Positions 5,555 through 13,661 of a stretch of DNA of 64,000 nt are shown piece by piece (the first letter of the stretch is position 1; each line of letters opens with the position of its first letter). A model generated the notes under the pieces. It saw only the letters and a program-made list of their open reading frames with translations. It searched no databases and was not told the DNA's origin. The DNA is from Salinadaptatus halalkaliphilus (GTDB lineage Archaea; Halobacteriota; Halobacteria; Halobacteriales; Natrialbaceae): NCBI RefSeq assembly GCF_006543045.1, contig NZ_RBZW01000021.1:186001-250000 (forward strand), written 5' to 3'. The position numbers and the translations under genes were made by a program.

Positions 5555-6742
5555 TCAACAGTCATCCACTTCCTCGCCGATGTCTATCTCACCGTGGATC
5601 GTGACATCACAGCCGCGATATAGCGTTCCGTCCGCAGAGACATCGTCGGTCACCGTTACCCCCTCACGAAGGAAGCTATCGCCATCGGCCTCGAGTTCGT
5701 CGTTGACTTGCGAGTGGGCGCCGATGGTGATATCACCACCTGCTTCGAGTTCGTCCGTCAGCTGTGAGTGGTCACCGATCGTGATGTCACCGTCGGCCTC
5801 GAGTTCGTCGTTGACCTGCGCATCGTTGCCCAGAGTAACGTCGCCACCTGCTTCGAGTTCGTTCGTCGTGTGCGGATTCGATCCGAACGAGATGTCTCCC
5901 GCCGCCGAGATCTCGTCGTTTGGTCTGAATTCGTCACCGGCGACGACGTTCCCGCCGGCCTCGAGTTCGTCGTTCGTTCGAACGTCGTTCCCGATCACGA
6001 TGTCACCACCTGCCGTAATCTCGTCGTTGGCGTTGGCGTGATCTTCGAGCAACACGTTCCCGGGGACGTCGATCTCGTCGTCGGACGACGATCCACTCTC
6101 GACGACGGCATCGAACTCACCGCTCGTCTCGTCGTCATCTGAGCCGTCGTCATCGTCCGATTCATCGCCATCCCCGGGGCCGTCGGCACCGTCCTCGAGA
6201 CAGGTCGCGGCGAGTTCGCGCTCGAGGTCGACGGTTACTGCTCCCTCGCTCGTTTCGATATCGATAGCAAGTGTCGTCTCCCCGCTCTGTTGATCGCCGG
6301 ACGGGACGAGCCACCCACCGACGTTCTCGGCATCACACTGAAGCGTCCCGCTAACGACGATTTCGTCACCGCTACCGTCGGTTTCCAGATCCGCAAGTTG
6401 TGGATACCCCCCAGTTGTATCAGAAACGCCGATCGCATTTTCATCGAGGTCGAGCGCGCCATCGTCAGTCTGATCCGTTATCGTCACGAGTTGCTCGTTC
6501 TCGTATTCGAAGTAGCCGTCGGTGCACCATCCCCACCACGTGTACTCCGTACACTCGAATTCCTCACCCTCGAGGACGACTTCGTCCGGGGTATCGATCC
6601 CAAGCAACGCGTTTGCGTCGTCGGCAACGGTGACGTCGACGGACCGATCGGCATCCAGGGCGCTAAACGCACCCGTCGAAACGAGGATGGCGGCGACGCC
6701 GACGAGGACGAACACGAAACCGATCGTTTTGACGGCTTTCAT
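5555..6742 (-). CDS. Secreted bactofilin-like repeat protein with GAFSxxxA signal peptide
   Basis: A 395-residue exported protein. Residues 1-31 are a signal peptide ending TGAFSALDA, followed at once by DRSVDV, the same end as in the proteins at 7694, 8344 and 9365. Residues 32-180 form a beta-rich domain with several Cys. Residues 182-213 are an Asp/Glu/Ser linker. Residues 220-395 are about nine turns of an 18-residue repeat, NDELEAGGDxxIGxxxxx, expected to fold as a right-handed beta-helix as in bactofilins (polymer-forming scaffold proteins). Bactofilins are normally cytoplasmic, so a secreted version is unusual. The start overlaps the stop of the upstream regulator gene by 4 bases, so they are co-transcribed. 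A surface scaffold role is inference. Confidence 0.72.
   Translation of the reverse strand: MKAVKTIGFVFVLVGVAAILVSTGAFSALDADRSVDVTVADDANALLGIDTPDEVVLEGEEFECTEYTWWGWCTDGYFEYENEQLVTITDQTDDGALDLDENAIGVSDTTGGYPQLADLETDGSGDEIVVSGTLQCDAENVGGWLVPSGDQQSGETTLAIDIETSEGAVTVDLERELAATCLEDGADGPGDGDESDDDDGSDDDETSGEFDAVVESGSSSDDEIDVPGNVLLEDHANANDEITAGGDIVIGNDVRTNDELEAGGNVVAGDEFRPNDEISAAGDISFGSNPHTTNELEAGGDVTLGNDAQVNDELEADGDITIGDHSQLTDELEAGGDITIGAHSQVNDELEADGDSFLREGVTVTDDVSADGTLYRGCDVTIHGEIDIGEEVDDC
5558..6085 (-). repeat. 54-bp coding tandem repeats (18-residue beta-helix turns)
   Basis: About nine consecutive units of 54 bases encode residues 220-395 of the protein above. The unit begins N/T-D-E-L/I-E/S-A-x-G-D and its spacing is exactly 18 residues through most of the array. 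The DNA units are similar but not identical, so this is an old, diversified array rather than a recent expansion. Confidence 0.8.
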
Positions 6743-7275
6743 CGTGGCCGCTCCGTTCCACCGAGTTTGAGTCGTCGGTTCTGCCAGACGTGGACGACCG
6801 CCGAGACGCCAAAGAGCGCGACGACGAGCGTCGCCCACCCCAGTTCCGGGATCGTTTCGGTGGGGATCCACTCGAGCCAGAGCCCGCCCATTACGACCAG
6901 TCCAACGGCAGCCAGCCCGAGATAGTACGTGCCCCACGGGACCGAATCGCCGGGAACGATATCGAGGTAGACGTCTAGATCGGCCGCTTCCTCGGTCAGT
7001 TCGATCGTCCGATCGTCGAACGCGATCATGTTCGCGCGCTCGAGGGTCGGCAGGTGGTTCTGCTGTAGGGAGGTGTAGACGCGCTTGCGTTCGGCGGAGG
7101 TCAGTTCCTCGACGTCCTTGTCGAGTTCCCAGGCGGCGACGTGTTCGGCGAGGTCCCCGAGGGTGACGGGTTCGTCCTCGCGTTTGCAGTAGTGAATCGC
7201 GTATCGCCGTCGCTGATTACTCAATAAGTCGAAGATTTCTCCGCGATCCGGTCGCCCCTCGTCAGCCGTCGCCAT
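6739..7275 (-). CDS. Winged-helix regulator with C-terminal membrane anchor (DUF7344-like)
   Basis: A 178-residue protein. Residues 10-100 are a winged-helix domain of the haloarchaeal type seen in DUF7344 proteins: IFDLLSNQRRRYAIHYC, a helix around LGDLAEHVAAWE, then the recognition region KRVYTSLQQNHLPTLE. Residues about 117-165 hold two hydrophobic segments, so it is anchored in the membrane with the DNA-binding domain inside the cell. It overlaps the bactofilin-like gene by 4 bases and is divergent from the GAFS gene at 7694, across a 418-base intergenic region. A local regulator of this surface cluster is the natural inference. Confidence 0.75.
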   Translation of the reverse strand: MATADEGRPDRGEIFDLLSNQRRRYAIHYCKREDEPVTLGDLAEHVAAWELDKDVEELTSAERKRVYTSLQQNHLPTLERANMIAFDDRTIELTEEAADLDVYLDIVPGDSVPWGTYYLGLAAVGLVVMGGLWLEWIPTETIPELGWATLVVALFGVSAVVHVWQNRRLKLGGTERPR

Positions 7276-7693
7276 TGCTCCCCAGGTTGACTGATTCTAC
7301 TCACCAGTGACAGATAAGTTTTCTTGTAGTGTTGGTTGGTATCAACATCCTCGCTGCACTATTTCTACACACCTTGGCACGAATCGCCATGCCTGCTAGC
7401 CGACTCGCTTCGCTCTCGATTGCTCCGGTCTGGTTTCACGTCACCGAACCAACATACTGACTATGTTTGTAGTAGGATTGTTAACGACGGTACTATACTG
7501 GTGTGTCAACGAGGAACAGCGGCCATGCGTGCCACCGTCACCACTAGACGGTCGTGTCATATGGTATCATGGAATCCCTCAAATCCGCCGATTTCGGCCG
7601 TTCAGGGTGGGCTTGAAGCCGGTACGGACTGTCCTGTAGCAGTTCTCTCCGATCAATACAAAGGGGGTGGGGAACATATCGTGAAATATGAGA
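7276..7693. other. Divergent intergenic region of the surface cluster
   Basis: 418 bases without a convincing gene. It is more AT-rich than its surroundings and carries promoters in both directions. On the right it holds the conserved block also found upstream of 9365 (separate entry). A GACTCGCTTCGCTCTCG stretch near 7403 is a weak imperfect hairpin. The open frame 7336-7773 does not look like a protein and crosses into the next gene. Confidence 0.6.
7588..7665 (+). promoter_or_regulatory. Upstream block, copy 1 (shared with 9186-9284)
   Basis: Three pieces occur in the same order upstream of the genes at 7694 and 9365: GGCCGTTCAGG followed shortly by CTTGAA; then GTACGGAC; then CAATACAAAG with a G-rich tail. 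The last piece is the likely TATA region. The two genes also share almost the same first 28 codons, so the whole unit was probably duplicated. Confidence 0.6.
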
Positions 7694-8215
7694 ATGAATC
7701 GACGCAACGTGTTGGTCGGACTGGGAACGATCGTCGCCGGCGGTGGCGCCGCACTCGGGACGGGTGCGTTTAGCACTGTGACGGCTGAACGAACCGTCAG
7801 TGTCGAAACGGCGGGCGATAGCGACGCTTTCCTCGCGCTCACGGCAGCAGAGGGCGCTGAGGACTATGTCGATACCGATGGCGACACCATCGAAATCGAC
7901 ATCGGTGGGGACGGTGACGGCATCAACCAGGACGCACTGACTCGCTTCGAGGAACTCGTCGAGATCACGAACAACGGGACCAACTCAGTCGACATCTCAG
8001 CTTCGATTGTGGAGAGCAGTGACGAAGCGGACGTGCTAACACTGATCGAAGAGTTCGGCGAAGATAACTCGCTCGGTGGTACAGAATCCACGACCTTCGG
8101 CCTCGCGATCGAACTCCGCGAGGCGGAGGTCGGGAGTGGTACGTCATATGACGAAGGCGACCTCACCGACGACTTCGACCCTACGATTGAGATTACCGCC
8201 GAGTCAACCGAGTAA
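7694..8215 (+). CDS. Secreted GAFSxxxA protein 1 (DUF1102/SipW-substrate-like)
   Basis: A 173-residue acidic exported protein. Residues 1-31 form a signal peptide that begins with a twin-arginine-like MNRRNVLVGLG and ends TGAFSTVTA, predicted to be cut just before ERTVSV. The mature part is beta-rich with segments such as LVEITNNGTNSVDISASIV, typical of an immunoglobulin-like sandwich. The signal end and mature start match the haloarchaeal DUF1102/SipW-dependent style. An ATG two codons upstream (7688) is possible, but 7694 aligns with the paralogue at 9365. The dedicated-type signal peptidase at 11091 is the likely processing enzyme (inference). Its cell-surface function is unknown. Confidence 0.75.
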   Translation: MNRRNVLVGLGTIVAGGGAALGTGAFSTVTAERTVSVETAGDSDAFLALTAAEGAEDYVDTDGDTIEIDIGGDGDGINQDALTRFEELVEITNNGTNSVDISASIVESSDEADVLTLIEEFGEDNSLGGTESTTFGLAIELREAEVGSGTSYDEGDLTDDFDPTIEITAESTE

Positions 8216-8307
8216 GCCTCCCCGTCGCATCACGTTCGGTTTTGGGATCGCCATTTCTCGTCACTGTCGCTTTGTGGTGTCTGCCTGTGGTAATAACTCA
8301 CTCGATC

Positions 8308-8321
8308 AATATAGTTATAGG
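8308..8321 (+). promoter_or_regulatory. TATA region for the gene at 8344
   Basis: AATATAGTTATAGG lies 23-36 bases upstream of the ATG at 8344, the distance expected for a leaderless haloarchaeal transcript. The preceding GATCAATA echoes the GATCAATACAAAG block upstream of 7694. Confidence 0.55.
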
Positions 8322-8343
8322 TACTCGAGACCTACAGTATAGT

Positions 8344-9153
8344 ATGAACAGACGGGCGTTTCTGGGGCTCGGGGCTGCGTTCATCGGCGCTGGTGCACTC
8401 CACCAGACCGGTGCCTTTAGCTCCGTCAGCGCTGGTCGCGGGGTTGCAGTCTCCGCTGCGACCGATCCGAACGCCCTGCTCGGCGTCGACCGCAGCGAGT
8501 ACCCGCCGACAGTAACGAACAACACCGACAGTTTCTCGATGACCGTCTCCCTCGAGAGCCACAATCTCGCGTTCGACGTGACGGGCGACGGCAGCTACGA
8601 GGAACCCGCGACGTTCCAGTTCGGGCCAGGCGACTCTCGGACCGTCGAACTCGAGGGTGACGACGACACCGTCACGATTACTGCCGAACTCGAGAACGGT
8701 GCAGGGACGATCGAACTCGAGCGGTTCTTCGAGGTGCCACAGGCTGCGGCCATCGAACAGGTCGTTGGCAGTGTGAGAGAGGCCTTCGGAAGCGGCCGAT
8801 ACGAGTTTTCACTCACGAACACCAGTGGAAACGACATTACGCTCGATGGATTCGGTATCGCGTGGACGAACAATCCCGATGCGATGCAGGTACCACGCCC
8901 GAACGGCAACGACAGCATTCTCACCGCAAACGGCAGCCAGCGAATCGACCAGGTGCTGTACGTCGGTGGGGAGATAACCGACGTTATCGATGGGCAGGAG
9001 GTACAACTCGGCGGCGGCGAGGCCATGGACTTCGAAATCCAGCGGTTCAGTGACGGAAACCCTGGTGGCGGGATCGGTGTCGAAGATGTCGATTTAGCCG
9101 TCCGAGCAGCGGATGGCTCGAGTTCCGTCGTGGAACTGCGAGCAGACGGCTAA
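8344..9153 (+). CDS. Secreted GAFSxxxA protein 2
   Basis: A 269-residue exported protein. The signal peptide begins MNRRAFLGLG, a near-consensus haloarchaeal Tat motif, and ends TGAFSSVSA at residue 30, followed by GRGVAV. The mature chain has two beta-rich parts separated by AIEQVVGSVREAFGSG. The second, YEFSLTNTSGNDITLDGFGI, again looks like an immunoglobulin-like surface domain. It lies between the two closely related GAFS proteins and in the same direction, so it is probably exported and processed with them. The exact function is unknown. Confidence 0.72.
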   Translation: MNRRAFLGLGAAFIGAGALHQTGAFSSVSAGRGVAVSAATDPNALLGVDRSEYPPTVTNNTDSFSMTVSLESHNLAFDVTGDGSYEEPATFQFGPGDSRTVELEGDDDTVTITAELENGAGTIELERFFEVPQAAAIEQVVGSVREAFGSGRYEFSLTNTSGNDITLDGFGIAWTNNPDAMQVPRPNGNDSILTANGSQRIDQVLYVGGEITDVIDGQEVQLGGGEAMDFEIQRFSDGNPGGGIGVEDVDLAVRAADGSSSVVELRADG

Positions 9154-9185
9154 GTTCCTCGCGTATCCATCGAATCGACAAGCTC

Positions 9186-9284
9186 GTCGATTTTGGCCGT
9201 TCAGGACGGCCTTGAAAGGAGTATCGACGCCACTTCAGTACGGACGGTCGACCTTGAGGAATTTCTCGAAACCCAATACAAAGT
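9186..9284 (+). promoter_or_regulatory. Upstream block, copy 2 (shared with 7588-7665)
   Basis: This region repeats, in the same order, GGCCGTTCAGG plus CTTGAA, GTACGGAC and CAATACAAAG seen upstream of 7694. The last piece is about 80 bases before the ATG at 9365, farther than in copy 1 (about 30 bases), so this transcript would have a 5' leader or use another box closer in. Confidence 0.55.
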
Positions 9285-9364
9285 GGGTCCCACGTCTGTC
9301 CTCGAGTAAGAGCCACGTGCTGGGTCCGGTCATGGGTTCGGGCGTGGCTGGAGAGATACATACA

Positions 9365-9937
9365 ATGAATCGACGCAATGTGTTAGTTGGTTTGGGAACG
9401 ATCGTCGCCGGCGGTGGCGCAGCACTGGGATCGGGCGCGTTCAGCACGGCCGAGGCCACTCGGGATCTGGACGTCAACGTCGTTACTGATGACGAAATCG
9501 CAGAGGAGTTCGTCGATATTCTCCTGACGGACGTCGACGGCACCGACAGTGTGGGGGTCGACAATGGGGGCGATTCCGACGCGACAAATATGTTTCCCGA
9601 ACAAGAGGTCAACTACGACAACCACACAGCAACCGAGGCCGATGTCAGCCTCATGCAAAATGATGTCACGATTATATTCGGTCCCGACGGCAACGCACTC
9701 CCACCGAATTCGACTGTAAGCTACGACGAGCTCATTACCGTCGTCAACGACGAGGGGGACTCCCCACAGGACTTCGAGGTCAGTTTCTCGGTCGGTGGCG
9801 ACGAGCCATCGAGTGTTATCCTCGATCCGAACGAGCCCGAGGTTGACTCTGGCGAGAGCGAAAGCGTAGACGTTACCGTCGAAACCGGCGATGAAGACAG
9901 CTCTGGAACCCTCACTATCGAAATCACAGCGTCATAA
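9365..9937 (+). CDS. Secreted GAFSxxxA protein 3, paralogue of 7694
   Basis: A 190-residue exported acidic protein. The first 28 residues are almost identical to the protein at 7694, including MNRRNVLVGLG. The signal ends SGAFSTAEA at residue 31, followed by TRDLDV. The mature part differs: an N-terminal Asp-rich segment, then a domain with YDELITVVNDEGDSPQDFEV and a C-terminal beta strand TLTIEITAS. Signal conservation with mature divergence is what a shared export and processing route would select. Probably a surface fibre or matrix component, as inferred for its neighbours. Confidence 0.73.
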   Translation: MNRRNVLVGLGTIVAGGGAALGSGAFSTAEATRDLDVNVVTDDEIAEEFVDILLTDVDGTDSVGVDNGGDSDATNMFPEQEVNYDNHTATEADVSLMQNDVTIIFGPDGNALPPNSTVSYDELITVVNDEGDSPQDFEVSFSVGGDEPSSVILDPNEPEVDSGESESVDVTVETGDEDSSGTLTIEITAS

Positions 9938-10013
9938 ACTAAGCGTCGTGCTCGGTACATGACCGTGCTGTTGGCTGTGTGGCCAAACTGGAGCACTGTC
10001 AGAAATCCATCGG

Positions 10014-10985
10014 ATGCCATCTACAAAGGTCCTCGCGACCACAATCGCGGTTTGCGTGCTTTGCGGTCTGGTAGTCCCGACAGCGGCACTGGCAGTCGGT
10101 GAAGACGCGGCGGCCAACGAGGTGACTCTCGAGCCGGTCGACGACCGGTATGCGACGATCGAAGACGACGAACTCAGGCTCGATCTTGGCGTCTACGACC
10201 ACGCGGTGACGACCATTGTCAGCGTGTTCACGATCACGGTCGGCGAGGACGCATCGACGATCGAGGAAATCTGGATCGACCACGACGTCGACGGGATTCA
10301 GTTCGCTATTGGTGGGGAAGAGGTAACTGCGGATTCACCCATCGAGCCCTCGCCCGGCGAGACCATCACGGTTGGGCTAACAGTCGATACAGCGACGAAC
10401 AACTACGACGAGAGCGAGACGTTCACGGTCCACGTCGCCTACGAGGACGACGAAGACGACGGTGACGAGGAGGCCGACGACGGCGACGACGCCGACAGCG
10501 GTGGTGGTGGTGGTGGTGACAGCGGCGGACAGACCGGGGACGAGCAGCCGTCGACCGAGAAAGACGAACCCGCGGCCGTGATCGACCAGATCGACCTCGA
10601 GGCCGCCCCCACGGATGTCGAGACCGGCGAGACGGTGACGGTGACCGCGACCTACGAGAACACCGGGAATATCACGGGCGAGCGGACCGTCGAGTTGACC
10701 GAAGACGGCGTCGCCGTCGCGAGCGAGACGATCGAACTCGGCCCCGAGGAGACGGAGACGGTCTCGTTCGAGTGGTACGCCGACGCCGCCGGCGAGTACG
10801 ACCTCGCGGTCGACGACGAACTGGCCGACTCGATTACCGTGACGGATCCGGGGCCGATGGCACTCGAGGACCGCGACCTCTCGGGCCCGGCGACGGCAGC
10901 ACTCGCGCCGCCGGCGGCGCTCAGCATCCTGGCGCTGGGGATTGCTGCCAGACGACGGTGGGATCAAATTGGGCGGGTCCGCTGA
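10014..10985 (+). CDS. Secreted CARDB-like protein with C-terminal membrane anchor
   Basis: A 323-residue exported protein. A Sec-type signal peptide occupies residues about 1-28 (TTIAVCVLCGLVVPTAALA). Domain 1 spans about 30-140. An acidic and glycine-rich linker with a run of six Gly covers about 143-180. Domain 2 (about 190-275) is a CARDB-like beta domain: VETGETVTVTATYENTGN, then ETETVSFEWYADAAGEYDL. A hydrophobic C-terminal anchor followed by RRRWDQ ends the chain. Its signal lacks the GAFSxxxA end, so it should use ordinary signal peptidase. It sits between the GAFS genes and the signal peptidase, and may tether the exported proteins to the membrane (inference). Confidence 0.7.
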   Translation: MPSTKVLATTIAVCVLCGLVVPTAALAVGEDAAANEVTLEPVDDRYATIEDDELRLDLGVYDHAVTTIVSVFTITVGEDASTIEEIWIDHDVDGIQFAIGGEEVTADSPIEPSPGETITVGLTVDTATNNYDESETFTVHVAYEDDEDDGDEEADDGDDADSGGGGGGDSGGQTGDEQPSTEKDEPAAVIDQIDLEAAPTDVETGETVTVTATYENTGNITGERTVELTEDGVAVASETIELGPEETETVSFEWYADAAGEYDLAVDDELADSITVTDPGPMALEDRDLSGPATAALAPPAALSILALGIAARRRWDQIGRVR

Positions 10986-11090
10986 CGGATCACGAGGATC
11001 TGATCGGAGCCGGTGTCTTAAGGTCGTTCGTCCCCGACGTTTCGTCGAGACGGATCGTTCGCTTGGCATGACAACTAGACGAACACGACG

Positions 11091-12263
11091 ATGACGGCAC
11101 GAACGTACCTCGAGCGGGGACTGGGGATAGCGGTGGTGATCGTCATCGTCCTGTTGTTGATCGGCCAGGTGCTCGGCCAGCCGATCTTGCTCGGCTACGT
11201 CGCGACCGGCAGTATGGAACCGACGATGAACGCCGGCGACGGCTTCGTCGCGATTCCCAGCGTCGTTGCCGGCGAGATCCAGGAGGGCGATGTCGTCGTC
11301 TACGACGCTCGAGAGTTACACGACGGCGGACTGACGACTCACCGAGTGGTCGGCGAGACCGAGGACGGATACGTCACTGCGGGCGACGCGAATCCCTTCA
11401 CCGATCAGGACGGCGACGAACCTCCCGTTTCCGAGAGCCAGATCGTCGCGACCGCCTGGCAGGTAAACGGCGAGGTCGTGACGATCCCGCATCTCGGAAC
11501 CGTCGTTATGGGGATGCACGGGCTGCTCGAGCAGGCGTCTCAGACCGTGACATCGGCACTCGGAATAGAGGGATCGTCCGGGTCGGACGGACTCGGCGCG
11601 TTTTTCGTCGCGATCGGCGTTGCGCTGTTGGGATTTGGACTCTTGCTCGAGCGGTTCGGTCCGTCAGAACGGATAACCGATCGATCCCGCCGCCGGAAAA
11701 ACGTCGTTCGGTTCTGGGTCGCGATCGGCGTCGTATTGGTGGCCCTCGTTACGGTTGCGACTGCAGCGATGGTCATCCCGGCGGGAACGACGGAGTACGG
11801 CCTGGTGAGTTCCGACTCGCCGACTGACGATCCACAGATCGTCGCTCCCGGTGAGACGACGACGCTCACACGGACCGTCGACAACGCCGGCTTCGTTCCC
11901 GTGGTCGTCGTCCATGAGGCTCCTCACGAGCACGTCTCAGTCGATCCGGACCGACAGACGGTCGGCATTCGAAGCGAGGCGGAGACGACGGTATCGCTTA
12001 CCGCACCCGAGGAAACGGGTGAGTACACGCGCCACGTCGAGGAACACCGCTATCTCGCCGTCGTTTCGCCATCGATACTCGGCACCCTTCACGATGTCCA
12101 TCCGCTTGTCGCCATCGCCTTCGTCAATGTGGTCGTCGTTGCAGTCACCGTTGCCCTCGTGAGTCTCCTCTTCGGGACCGGCGACTTTCGGCTCCGGAAC
12201 GGCGGCGATCACGTTCCCTTCTCGACACGGCTCGCCCGGACGGTTCGAAAATGGCTTCGATGA
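11091..12263 (+). CDS. ER-type signal peptidase I with long C-terminal extension (SipW-like)
   Basis: A 390-residue membrane enzyme. An N-terminal membrane segment (about 9-31) is followed by the catalytic core: TGSMEPTM with nucleophile Ser41, TTHRVVG with His84, and GDAN with Asp99. A His in place of the bacterial Lys is the mark of the archaeal/ER/SipW class, which cleaves signal peptides on the outer face of the membrane. Archaeal signal peptidases are usually about 150-250 residues. This one has extra membrane segments near 165-185 and 205-228, an outside beta domain (about 245-335) and a final membrane segment. It lies among four GAFSxxxA substrates, so it is probably their dedicated processing enzyme. 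Confidence 0.85.
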   Translation: MTARTYLERGLGIAVVIVIVLLLIGQVLGQPILLGYVATGSMEPTMNAGDGFVAIPSVVAGEIQEGDVVVYDARELHDGGLTTHRVVGETEDGYVTAGDANPFTDQDGDEPPVSESQIVATAWQVNGEVVTIPHLGTVVMGMHGLLEQASQTVTSALGIEGSSGSDGLGAFFVAIGVALLGFGLLLERFGPSERITDRSRRRKNVVRFWVAIGVVLVALVTVATAAMVIPAGTTEYGLVSSDSPTDDPQIVAPGETTTLTRTVDNAGFVPVVVVHEAPHEHVSVDPDRQTVGIRSEAETTVSLTAPEETGEYTRHVEEHRYLAVVSPSILGTLHDVHPLVAIAFVNVVVVAVTVALVSLLFGTGDFRLRNGGDHVPFSTRLARTVRKWLR

Positions 12264-12464
12264 GTCCCACCCAAACCAGGTTGTGGGGTCGAGACAAAAT
12301 CCACTCGGACAGGACGATCACTATATCGTTGCACCGTTGTGTAAAATTCGTCCCCAAGCCACTATTGTTATAGTGATCGACGCCATTGACTCAATTACGC
12401 GTCGTCTCATCGATGTGTTTGGGGGCACGCATCTCGAGGGACCCCTCGGGACGACAGTGAGACG

Positions 12465-13661
12465 ATGGGGTGGATACGAATGCTCGATAATCCGCGGCTC
12501 GATCTCGTACTCGCGACGCACGGTCGACGCGTCGTCATCGTACTCCTGGTCCTCGGTGTCCTGGCGATCGGCGCGACCGGCTGGGCCGTCGCCAATCCGG
12601 AAACCGAGACGAGCCCACAGTTTGCCGAACATTCGGTGACGACGGACGTCCATACGAGTGCATCGGTCGTCGACGGCGGTAGTCTCTGGGAGGAGGGCGA
12701 CCAGCTCTCGAACAGTCCTGTGTACGTACTCGGGGCGTCACCCGAACTCGAGGTCCAACCGGTGACGCAGCTGACGAACGAAACGGAACGGACGCCGATC
12801 GAAGATGGGACGGTCACACACGAATTGACGGTCCGTCTCGAGGCGACTCGCGACGGCGAGGCGTTCTGGAACGAGAGCAATCAGGAACTCGAGTCGACCG
12901 GACCGGTCGAAGACGGCGTTAGTGCGTCCTCGACGACGATCGATATCGAGTCGCTGGTCGAGCGCCAGCGCCAGCTCGAGGAGGAAATCGGGACGATCGG
13001 TGACGTGGCCATCCACCTGGACCTTGCCGTCACCTACGAAACCGAGACCCACGAGGGAGCACAGACGGCGACGACGACGATCGACGTTGACGACAACGCG
13101 TACTGGCTGGCCGAGCCGCTGAGCGTGTCCGATACGAACGCACACCGAACCGGTACCGAACGGACGACCCAGTCGCGACATCCGTTAGTCATCGGTGGGC
13201 TGTCACTGGTCGGGACGCTCTCGCTCGCCGGCGCGGTTGTGACGAAGCGTCGGCTTCCCGTCGACGAGGACGAGGCGCGCCAGCGCGTCCACGAGCAGCG
13301 CTACGCCGAGTGGATCTCGCTGGGATCGATCCCGATGTGGATCGGCGATCACCACCTGTCGCTCAATACGTTAGAAGACGTCGTCGACGTCGCGATCGAC
13401 ACCAACGAACGAGTCGTCTACGACGCCCAGCGTGGGCTGTTCGCGGTCGTCAACGGCAATATCGTCTACTACTACAGCGAACGCGGTACCTGGGAACAGA
13501 CGACGTGGCCCGAGATGGGGTTCTCGAAAAACCAACAGGTCGTCGACACCGATCAGCCATCTCCAGCCGACCAACTCTCCGAATTCCAGGGTAGCGACGA
13601 GTTCGCAGCCCCCGACGAGGAAAATGCCTTCGACGACGAGGATGTCTGGGAACAACTGTGA
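12465..13661 (+). CDS. DUF5305-type membrane protein
   Basis: A 398-residue protein with a membrane segment near residues 23-43, an extracellular beta-rich domain of about 190 residues, a second membrane segment near 240-262 (GGLSLVGTLSLAGAVVTKRR) and a cytoplasmic C-terminal domain of about 130 residues ending in acidic residues. The outside domain contains TVTHELTVRLEATRDGEAFW. This architecture, and the place directly after a SipW-like signal peptidase, matches haloarchaeal DUF5305 proteins. No biochemical role is known. It may be an assembly or anchoring partner for the processed surface proteins (inference). A second ATG at 12480 is an equally possible start. Confidence 0.72.
   Translation: MGWIRMLDNPRLDLVLATHGRRVVIVLLVLGVLAIGATGWAVANPETETSPQFAEHSVTTDVHTSASVVDGGSLWEEGDQLSNSPVYVLGASPELEVQPVTQLTNETERTPIEDGTVTHELTVRLEATRDGEAFWNESNQELESTGPVEDGVSASSTTIDIESLVERQRQLEEEIGTIGDVAIHLDLAVTYETETHEGAQTATTTIDVDDNAYWLAEPLSVSDTNAHRTGTERTTQSRHPLVIGGLSLVGTLSLAGAVVTKRRLPVDEDEARQRVHEQRYAEWISLGSIPMWIGDHHLSLNTLEDVVDVAIDTNERVVYDAQRGLFAVVNGNIVYYYSERGTWEQTTWPEMGFSKNQQVVDTDQPSPADQLSEFQGSDEFAAPDEENAFDDEDVWEQL

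Follow-up and report, generated by a model that had tools for sequence, protein, structure and literature searches.

A haloarchaeal Tat-fimbriae (tafi) type gene cluster with its own ER-type signal peptidase and a likely membrane anchor

TafA is the core of the haloarchaeal Tat-fimbriae, or 'tafi' (Galeva et al. 2025, iScience 28:111793, as reported in PMC12687288), and the PDB entry 9P0A bears the title 'Structure of Natrinema sp. J7-2 Tafi pilus'. In the Bacillus matrix fibre, TasA is cleaved within TWA|AFND (PMC10269814), and its donor strand, which comprises residues 28-38 including F29 and I32, starts right at the cut (PMC9674648). The first donor strand in Bacillus is believed to come from TapA, and the bundling pilus of Pyrobaculum has been described as a TasA-like system (PMC9674648).

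The locus described here lies in a window of 64,000 nt, the whole stretch of DNA that was analysed, from a haloarchaeal host genome of 4.5 Mb, and all coordinates refer to this window, whose nearest kin among the compared loci are Natrialbaceae. All eight genes that the first-pass annotation had placed in the cluster were confirmed as open frames at their positions. The plus strand carries six of them (starting at 7694, 8344, 9365, 10014, 11091 and 12465); the other two (6739-7275 and 5555-6742) lie on the minus strand and overlap by 4 bases at the start of the 5555-6742 gene. The genes and their parts are as follows, with the proteins named after their start positions in the text.

5555-6742, minus strand: GAFS-signal protein of 396 aa (start 6742), without twin Arg (signal profile and hhalign)
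6739-7275, minus strand: DUF7344 winged-helix protein with two membrane segments (DUF7344 profile, 102 bits)
7694-8215, plus strand: Tafi pilin or TafE-like subunit with Tat-type signal (family profile against 9P0A, E 3.3e-42)
7766-7792, plus strand: AFSTVTAER, predicted mature start and donor strand, residues 25-33 of the 7694 protein (aligned by motif to TasA AFNDIK)
8344-9153, plus strand: GAFS-signal subunit of 269 aa with Tat-type signal (signal profile, hhalign)
9365-9937, plus strand: TafA fimbrial protein with Tat-type signal (NF052520, 214.8 bits, cut-off 190)
10014-10985, plus strand: anchored protein whose Sec-type signal lacks GAFS, with a pilin-like N domain and a CARDB domain, and at its C-terminus a membrane segment and an Arg-rich tail
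10101-10463, plus strand: pilin-like domain of the anchored protein (hhalign prob 98.3, E 1.2e-14)
10593-10814, plus strand: CARDB domain of the anchored protein (PF07705, 34 bits, cut-off 22.7)
11091-12263, plus strand: ER-type (Ser-His) S26B signal peptidase (TIGR02228, 62.5 bits, cut-off 51.85)
11772-12098, plus strand: extra domain of the peptidase, CARDB-like (hhalign prob 94.5)
12465-13661, plus strand: DUF5305 membrane protein (DUF5305 profile, 151 bits)

The DUF5305, CARDB and winged-helix neighbours named in the first-pass annotation were thus all recovered by their profiles. They belong to a set conserved across 80 loci, taken as the surroundings of relatives of the 11091 peptidase, in which the pilin was found in 74, the DUF7344 protein in 72, the DUF5305 protein in 68 and the CARDB protein in 49. 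The DUF5305 protein is the sole copy in the host genome and is regarded as a conserved membrane partner and candidate component; profile comparison of the hhalign type revealed no kinship between it and any of the subunits, the anchored protein or the domain of the peptidase. The DUF7344 protein is a candidate local regulator and probably controls expression.

Judged by its sequences, the cluster belongs to an already known kind, the haloarchaeal Tat-fimbriae. This assignment is based on the following observations: the 9365 protein exceeds the cut-off of the NCBIfam model for TafA (NF052520); the profile of the 7694 family aligns end to end with 9P0A; a syntenic locus of Natrinema gari (L087) encodes a protein that contains a 21-residue segment of 9P0A exactly; and three other loci with TafA over the cut-off all have relatives of the pilin, the DUF7344 protein and the peptidase, one of them also of the DUF5305 and CARDB proteins. 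The equivalog models for TafE and TafC stayed below their cut-offs (TafE 85.6 of 155 bits for the 7694 protein, TafC at best 26 of 410 bits). No Pfam family covers the 7694 protein, and DUF1102 matches 9 of the 73 members of its alignment.

The mature parts of the four exported proteins had been described as different, which was correct only in part. A core is common to the 7694 and 9365 proteins (hhalign 92%), while the post-cleavage strand of the 8344 protein recurs in the 5555-6742 protein (hhalign 97%). The 5555-6742 protein consists of an N-terminal domain with the post-cleavage strand, an Asp-rich linker and a beta-solenoid-like repeat region, against which the FapA beta-solenoid profile scored 29 bits, just below its cut-off of 31. 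Its C-terminal repeats (V/TNDELEAGGDITIG) look like a FapA/bactofilin-type beta-solenoid, which is unusual for an exported, fibre-linked protein. A 9P0A-type pilin and TafA stand together in 7694-9937, and TafA-like best matches occurred in only 6 of the 80 related loci. The cluster can be described as a tafi member with an unusual mix of subunits.

The four exported proteins (6742, 7694, 8344 and 9365) have in common a signal ending in G-AFSxxxAxR, in agreement with the GAFSxxxA signal of the first-pass annotation. GAFS occupies residues 24-27, or 23-26 in the case of the 8344 protein, and each of the four has Ala at 30/31 and Arg at 32/33. When a 44-position profile of this signal was compared with the whole genome, exactly four strong matches were obtained, all in the cluster (E 1e-22 to 2e-16), and the fifth-ranked match (E 0.003) was partial and covered the twin-Arg part only. 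The Tat-like twin Arg (MNRR...) is present in three of the four (7694, 8344 and 9365), which are probably exported by Tat, and is absent from the 6742 protein on the minus strand.

The end of the signal had been placed at residues 30-31. A cut near G24/A25 is likely instead, as in TWA|AFND of TasA. In the 73-sequence alignment of the 7694 family, A25, F26, R33 and D42 never vary, and V29 and A31 hardly do. Aligned by motif, F26 and V29 of the 7694 protein thus occupy the places of F29 and I32 in TasA. By this analogy we infer that GAFSxxxAxR joins the cut site and the donor strand in a single motif. In 9P0A, 188 of 215 residues are modelled, and if all 27 missing residues were N-terminal, the chain would begin at the place of the GAFS cut.

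The signal was found to be closely linked to the peptidase. A broad form of the motif gave 98 matches in 65 of the 80 loci (93 of them with the twin Arg), all at most 7 kb from the peptidase and mostly upstream; no match occurred in these loci more than 7 kb upstream or more than 3 kb downstream of it. The strict motif gave 84 matches in the same loci, compared with 0-2 for five decoy motifs. Across 145 genomes of the order, with the peptidase counted as full-length by match coverage, both signal and peptidase were found in 85, the signal only in 4, the peptidase only in 2 and neither in 54 (Fisher p 2e-32, a value that is not literal and overstates independence, because the genomes share ancestry). 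The predicted co-occurrence across haloarchaeal genomes was thus borne out, and GAFS proteins in genomes lacking the peptidase were not common. Among the 94 best signals listed, 22 had no listed peptidase within 10 kb; therefore adjacency to the peptidase is usual, not universal.

With an alignment of 73 sequences, AlphaFold gave an all-beta model of the 7694 protein with a pLDDT of 76.5. In a Foldseek search of this model, the first-ranked PDB entry was 7UEG (prob 0.99) and the second 9P0A (prob 0.97), with weak E values (0.015 and 0.018) and modest TM-scores (0.38-0.45). The model of TafA (13 sequences, pLDDT 39.5) was too low in confidence for a reading of its fold. For the 7694 protein, a donor-strand fold is supported by its top two PDB matches, with these modest scores. 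The TasA/camelysin family PF12389, part of the comparison proposed in the first-pass annotation, had no match among the window proteins. Because of the solved relative 9P0A, the fold match to the bundling pilus and the tight co-occurrence, the reading as a dedicated multi-subunit fibre cluster with its own ER-type peptidase and a TasA-like way of working is well supported.

The 11091 peptidase is of the ER type (S26B) by TIGR02228, with S41, H84, D99 and D105 invariant in its family and no Ser-Lys dyad, and the extra domain noticed in the first pass is real: two more membrane segments follow in the protein, and after them come an extracytoplasmic domain and a final membrane segment. It would be the enzyme that cleaves the GAFS subunits. 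The extra domain aligned with the CARDB domain of the anchored protein (hhalign prob 94.5), compared with at most 4.6% for shuffled controls.

The anchored protein (10014) is the part of the cluster that we consider new, as a likely anchor with a pilin-like domain minus the donor strand, relative to tafi as known here through PMC12687288 and 9P0A. Its residues 30-150 aligned with the mature pilin over 114 columns (hhalign prob 98.3), compared with at most 0.3% for column-shuffled controls and 3.5% for reversed ones. The alignment starts at pilin residue 47, past the AFSxVxAxR strand; among 51 relatives of the anchored protein none has GAFS and 50 have the C-terminal membrane segment. Because its pilin-like domain is without the donor strand, the 10014 protein could accept a strand and not donate one, and may thus serve as a membrane-bound acceptor where the fibre starts at its base. 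A tentative extension of this proposal, to which we give slightly less than even chances, is that a dedicated membrane-anchored acceptor, with the groove kept and the donor strand lost, tethers the fibre, and that this anchor and the adjoining peptidase with its related CARDB-type domain form one release-and-assembly site, with a polarity opposite to that of the TapA model. With an acceptor at the base here and TapA as the presumed first donor in Bacillus, the polarity of the fibre would therefore be reversed.

Gene content, signal uniqueness, co-occurrence, the 9P0A relation and the domain homologies were computed, and taken as a whole they are best explained, with good probability in our judgement, by a thin tafi-type donor-strand fibre on the cell surface with Tat-type subunits, the 11091 protein as the cutting enzyme and the 10014 protein as the anchor. 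Export route, cleavage, strand exchange, anchor role and regulation would then be arranged as follows. The 7694, 8344 and 9365 subunits would leave the cell by Tat, the 6742 protein being without the twin Arg. The 11091 peptidase would cut the subunits near G|AFS and expose the AFSxVxAxR strand. In the manner of TasA, the freed strand would then insert into the open groove of the neighbouring subunit. Candidate bulk subunits are the 7694 pilin and TafA; the 8344 protein and the 5555-6742 protein are candidate minor or tip subunits, the latter accessory or tip. The 10014 protein, presumably exported by Sec, would accept a strand and hold the fibre to the membrane beside the peptidase, with the DUF5305 protein as a membrane partner and the DUF7344 protein probably governing expression.

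Different explanations of the cluster were weighed against this model. It could be a true SipW/TasA-class cluster, with TIGR04088 signals and camelysin/TasA subunits, homologous to the Bacillus tapA-sipW-tasA operon, as the presence of an ER-type peptidase, the resemblance of AFS after the cut to AFND of TasA and the nearness of the 7694 fold to the TasA-like bundling pilus would suggest. However, no window protein was listed for TIGR04088 (cut-off 19 bits) at E<=10, the 11091 peptidase reached 35.4 of the 190 bits demanded by the Bacillus SipW equivalog NF046067, and PF12389 did not match. The only three TIGR04088 matches in the whole genome, all over the cut-off, are on contig C26 beside a different ER-type peptidase. 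The window was therefore rejected as a SipW/TIGR04088-class cluster, and homology to the Bacillus operon is improbable. Thus, from the SipW/TasA-like export system first proposed, the dedicated fibre cluster, its own peptidase and the TasA-like working are retained on the strength of 9P0A, the bundling-pilus fold and the co-occurrence, and the filing under SipW/TasA is given up. The region on C26 (59483-65234; L174:3719-10289) holds an ER-type peptidase, three TIGR04088 proteins, near-miss camelysin matches and DUF7344-like genes. With AFSxxxAxR here and TIGR04088 on C26, the genome has two special peptidases, each lying with a signal class of its own. Two further Sec11-like signal peptidase genes stand in tandem on contig C21 (89190-90562; L148) and are probable general signal peptidases.

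Still less credible is the explanation that GAFSxxxAxR is merely a lineage-typical Tat signal, the peptidase a general one and their neighbourhood incidental. Twin Arg is frequent in exported proteins of haloarchaea, and the 22 of 94 listed signals that are not beside a listed peptidase also speak for it. These points are outweighed by the restriction of such signals to four in the whole genome, all in the cluster, by decoys giving 0-2 matches, by the 85/4/2/54 split and by the further Sec11-like peptidases elsewhere in the genome. A more serious competitor, which is nevertheless unlikely, accepts the fibre cluster and sees in the 10014 protein no structural base but a chaperone bound to the membrane, or an usher-like protein that holds subunits until they are assembled. 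An open-groove pilin-like domain could also shield a free donor strand, and a CARDB-type domain common to the peptidase and the 10014 protein suits a handover complex. Nothing decisive speaks against this, but a base subunit would account at least equally well for the pilin-like domain and the C-terminal anchor.

Compared with known systems, the cluster is closest to tafi (Galeva et al. 2025 as reported in PMC12687288; 9P0A), with which it has in common TafA over the cut-off, a 9P0A-family pilin and Tat-type signals, besides the synteny in Natrinema and the related genes in other tafA loci; it differs in holding the 9P0A-type pilin, TafA and two more GAFS proteins together, TafA-like matches being found in 6 of 80 loci. 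The TasA/TapA/SipW system of Bacillus subtilis resembles it in the ER-type peptidase beside the subunits, in small subunits (all-beta in the 7694 model) and in a predicted cut that leaves AF, with Phe at P2', at the head of the donor strand, whereas the signals here are of the Tat type and are missed by TIGR04088, TasA/camelysin profiles have no match, and the anchored partner is acceptor-like where TapA is thought to be the first donor (PMC9674648). The Pyrobaculum calidifontis bundling pilus (7UEG) is the top fold match of the 7694 model, at about 8% identity and a modest TM-score. In chaperone-usher pili (PapD-like, Caf1) the donor-strand logic is alike, and a few PapD-like domains and a Caf1M:Caf1 entry appeared low in the Foldseek list; in contrast, no usher or chaperone gene is present in the cluster, and the archaeon is single-membraned. 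Three subjects that are usually handled apart meet in this cluster: tafi fibres, donor-strand assembly of the TasA kind and an ER-type peptidase specific for one signal. Since two substrate classes stand beside two different peptidases in one genome, peptidase specificity would be directly testable in one organism, and an acceptor-only anchor would offer a concrete, testable answer to how the fibre is retained on the cell.
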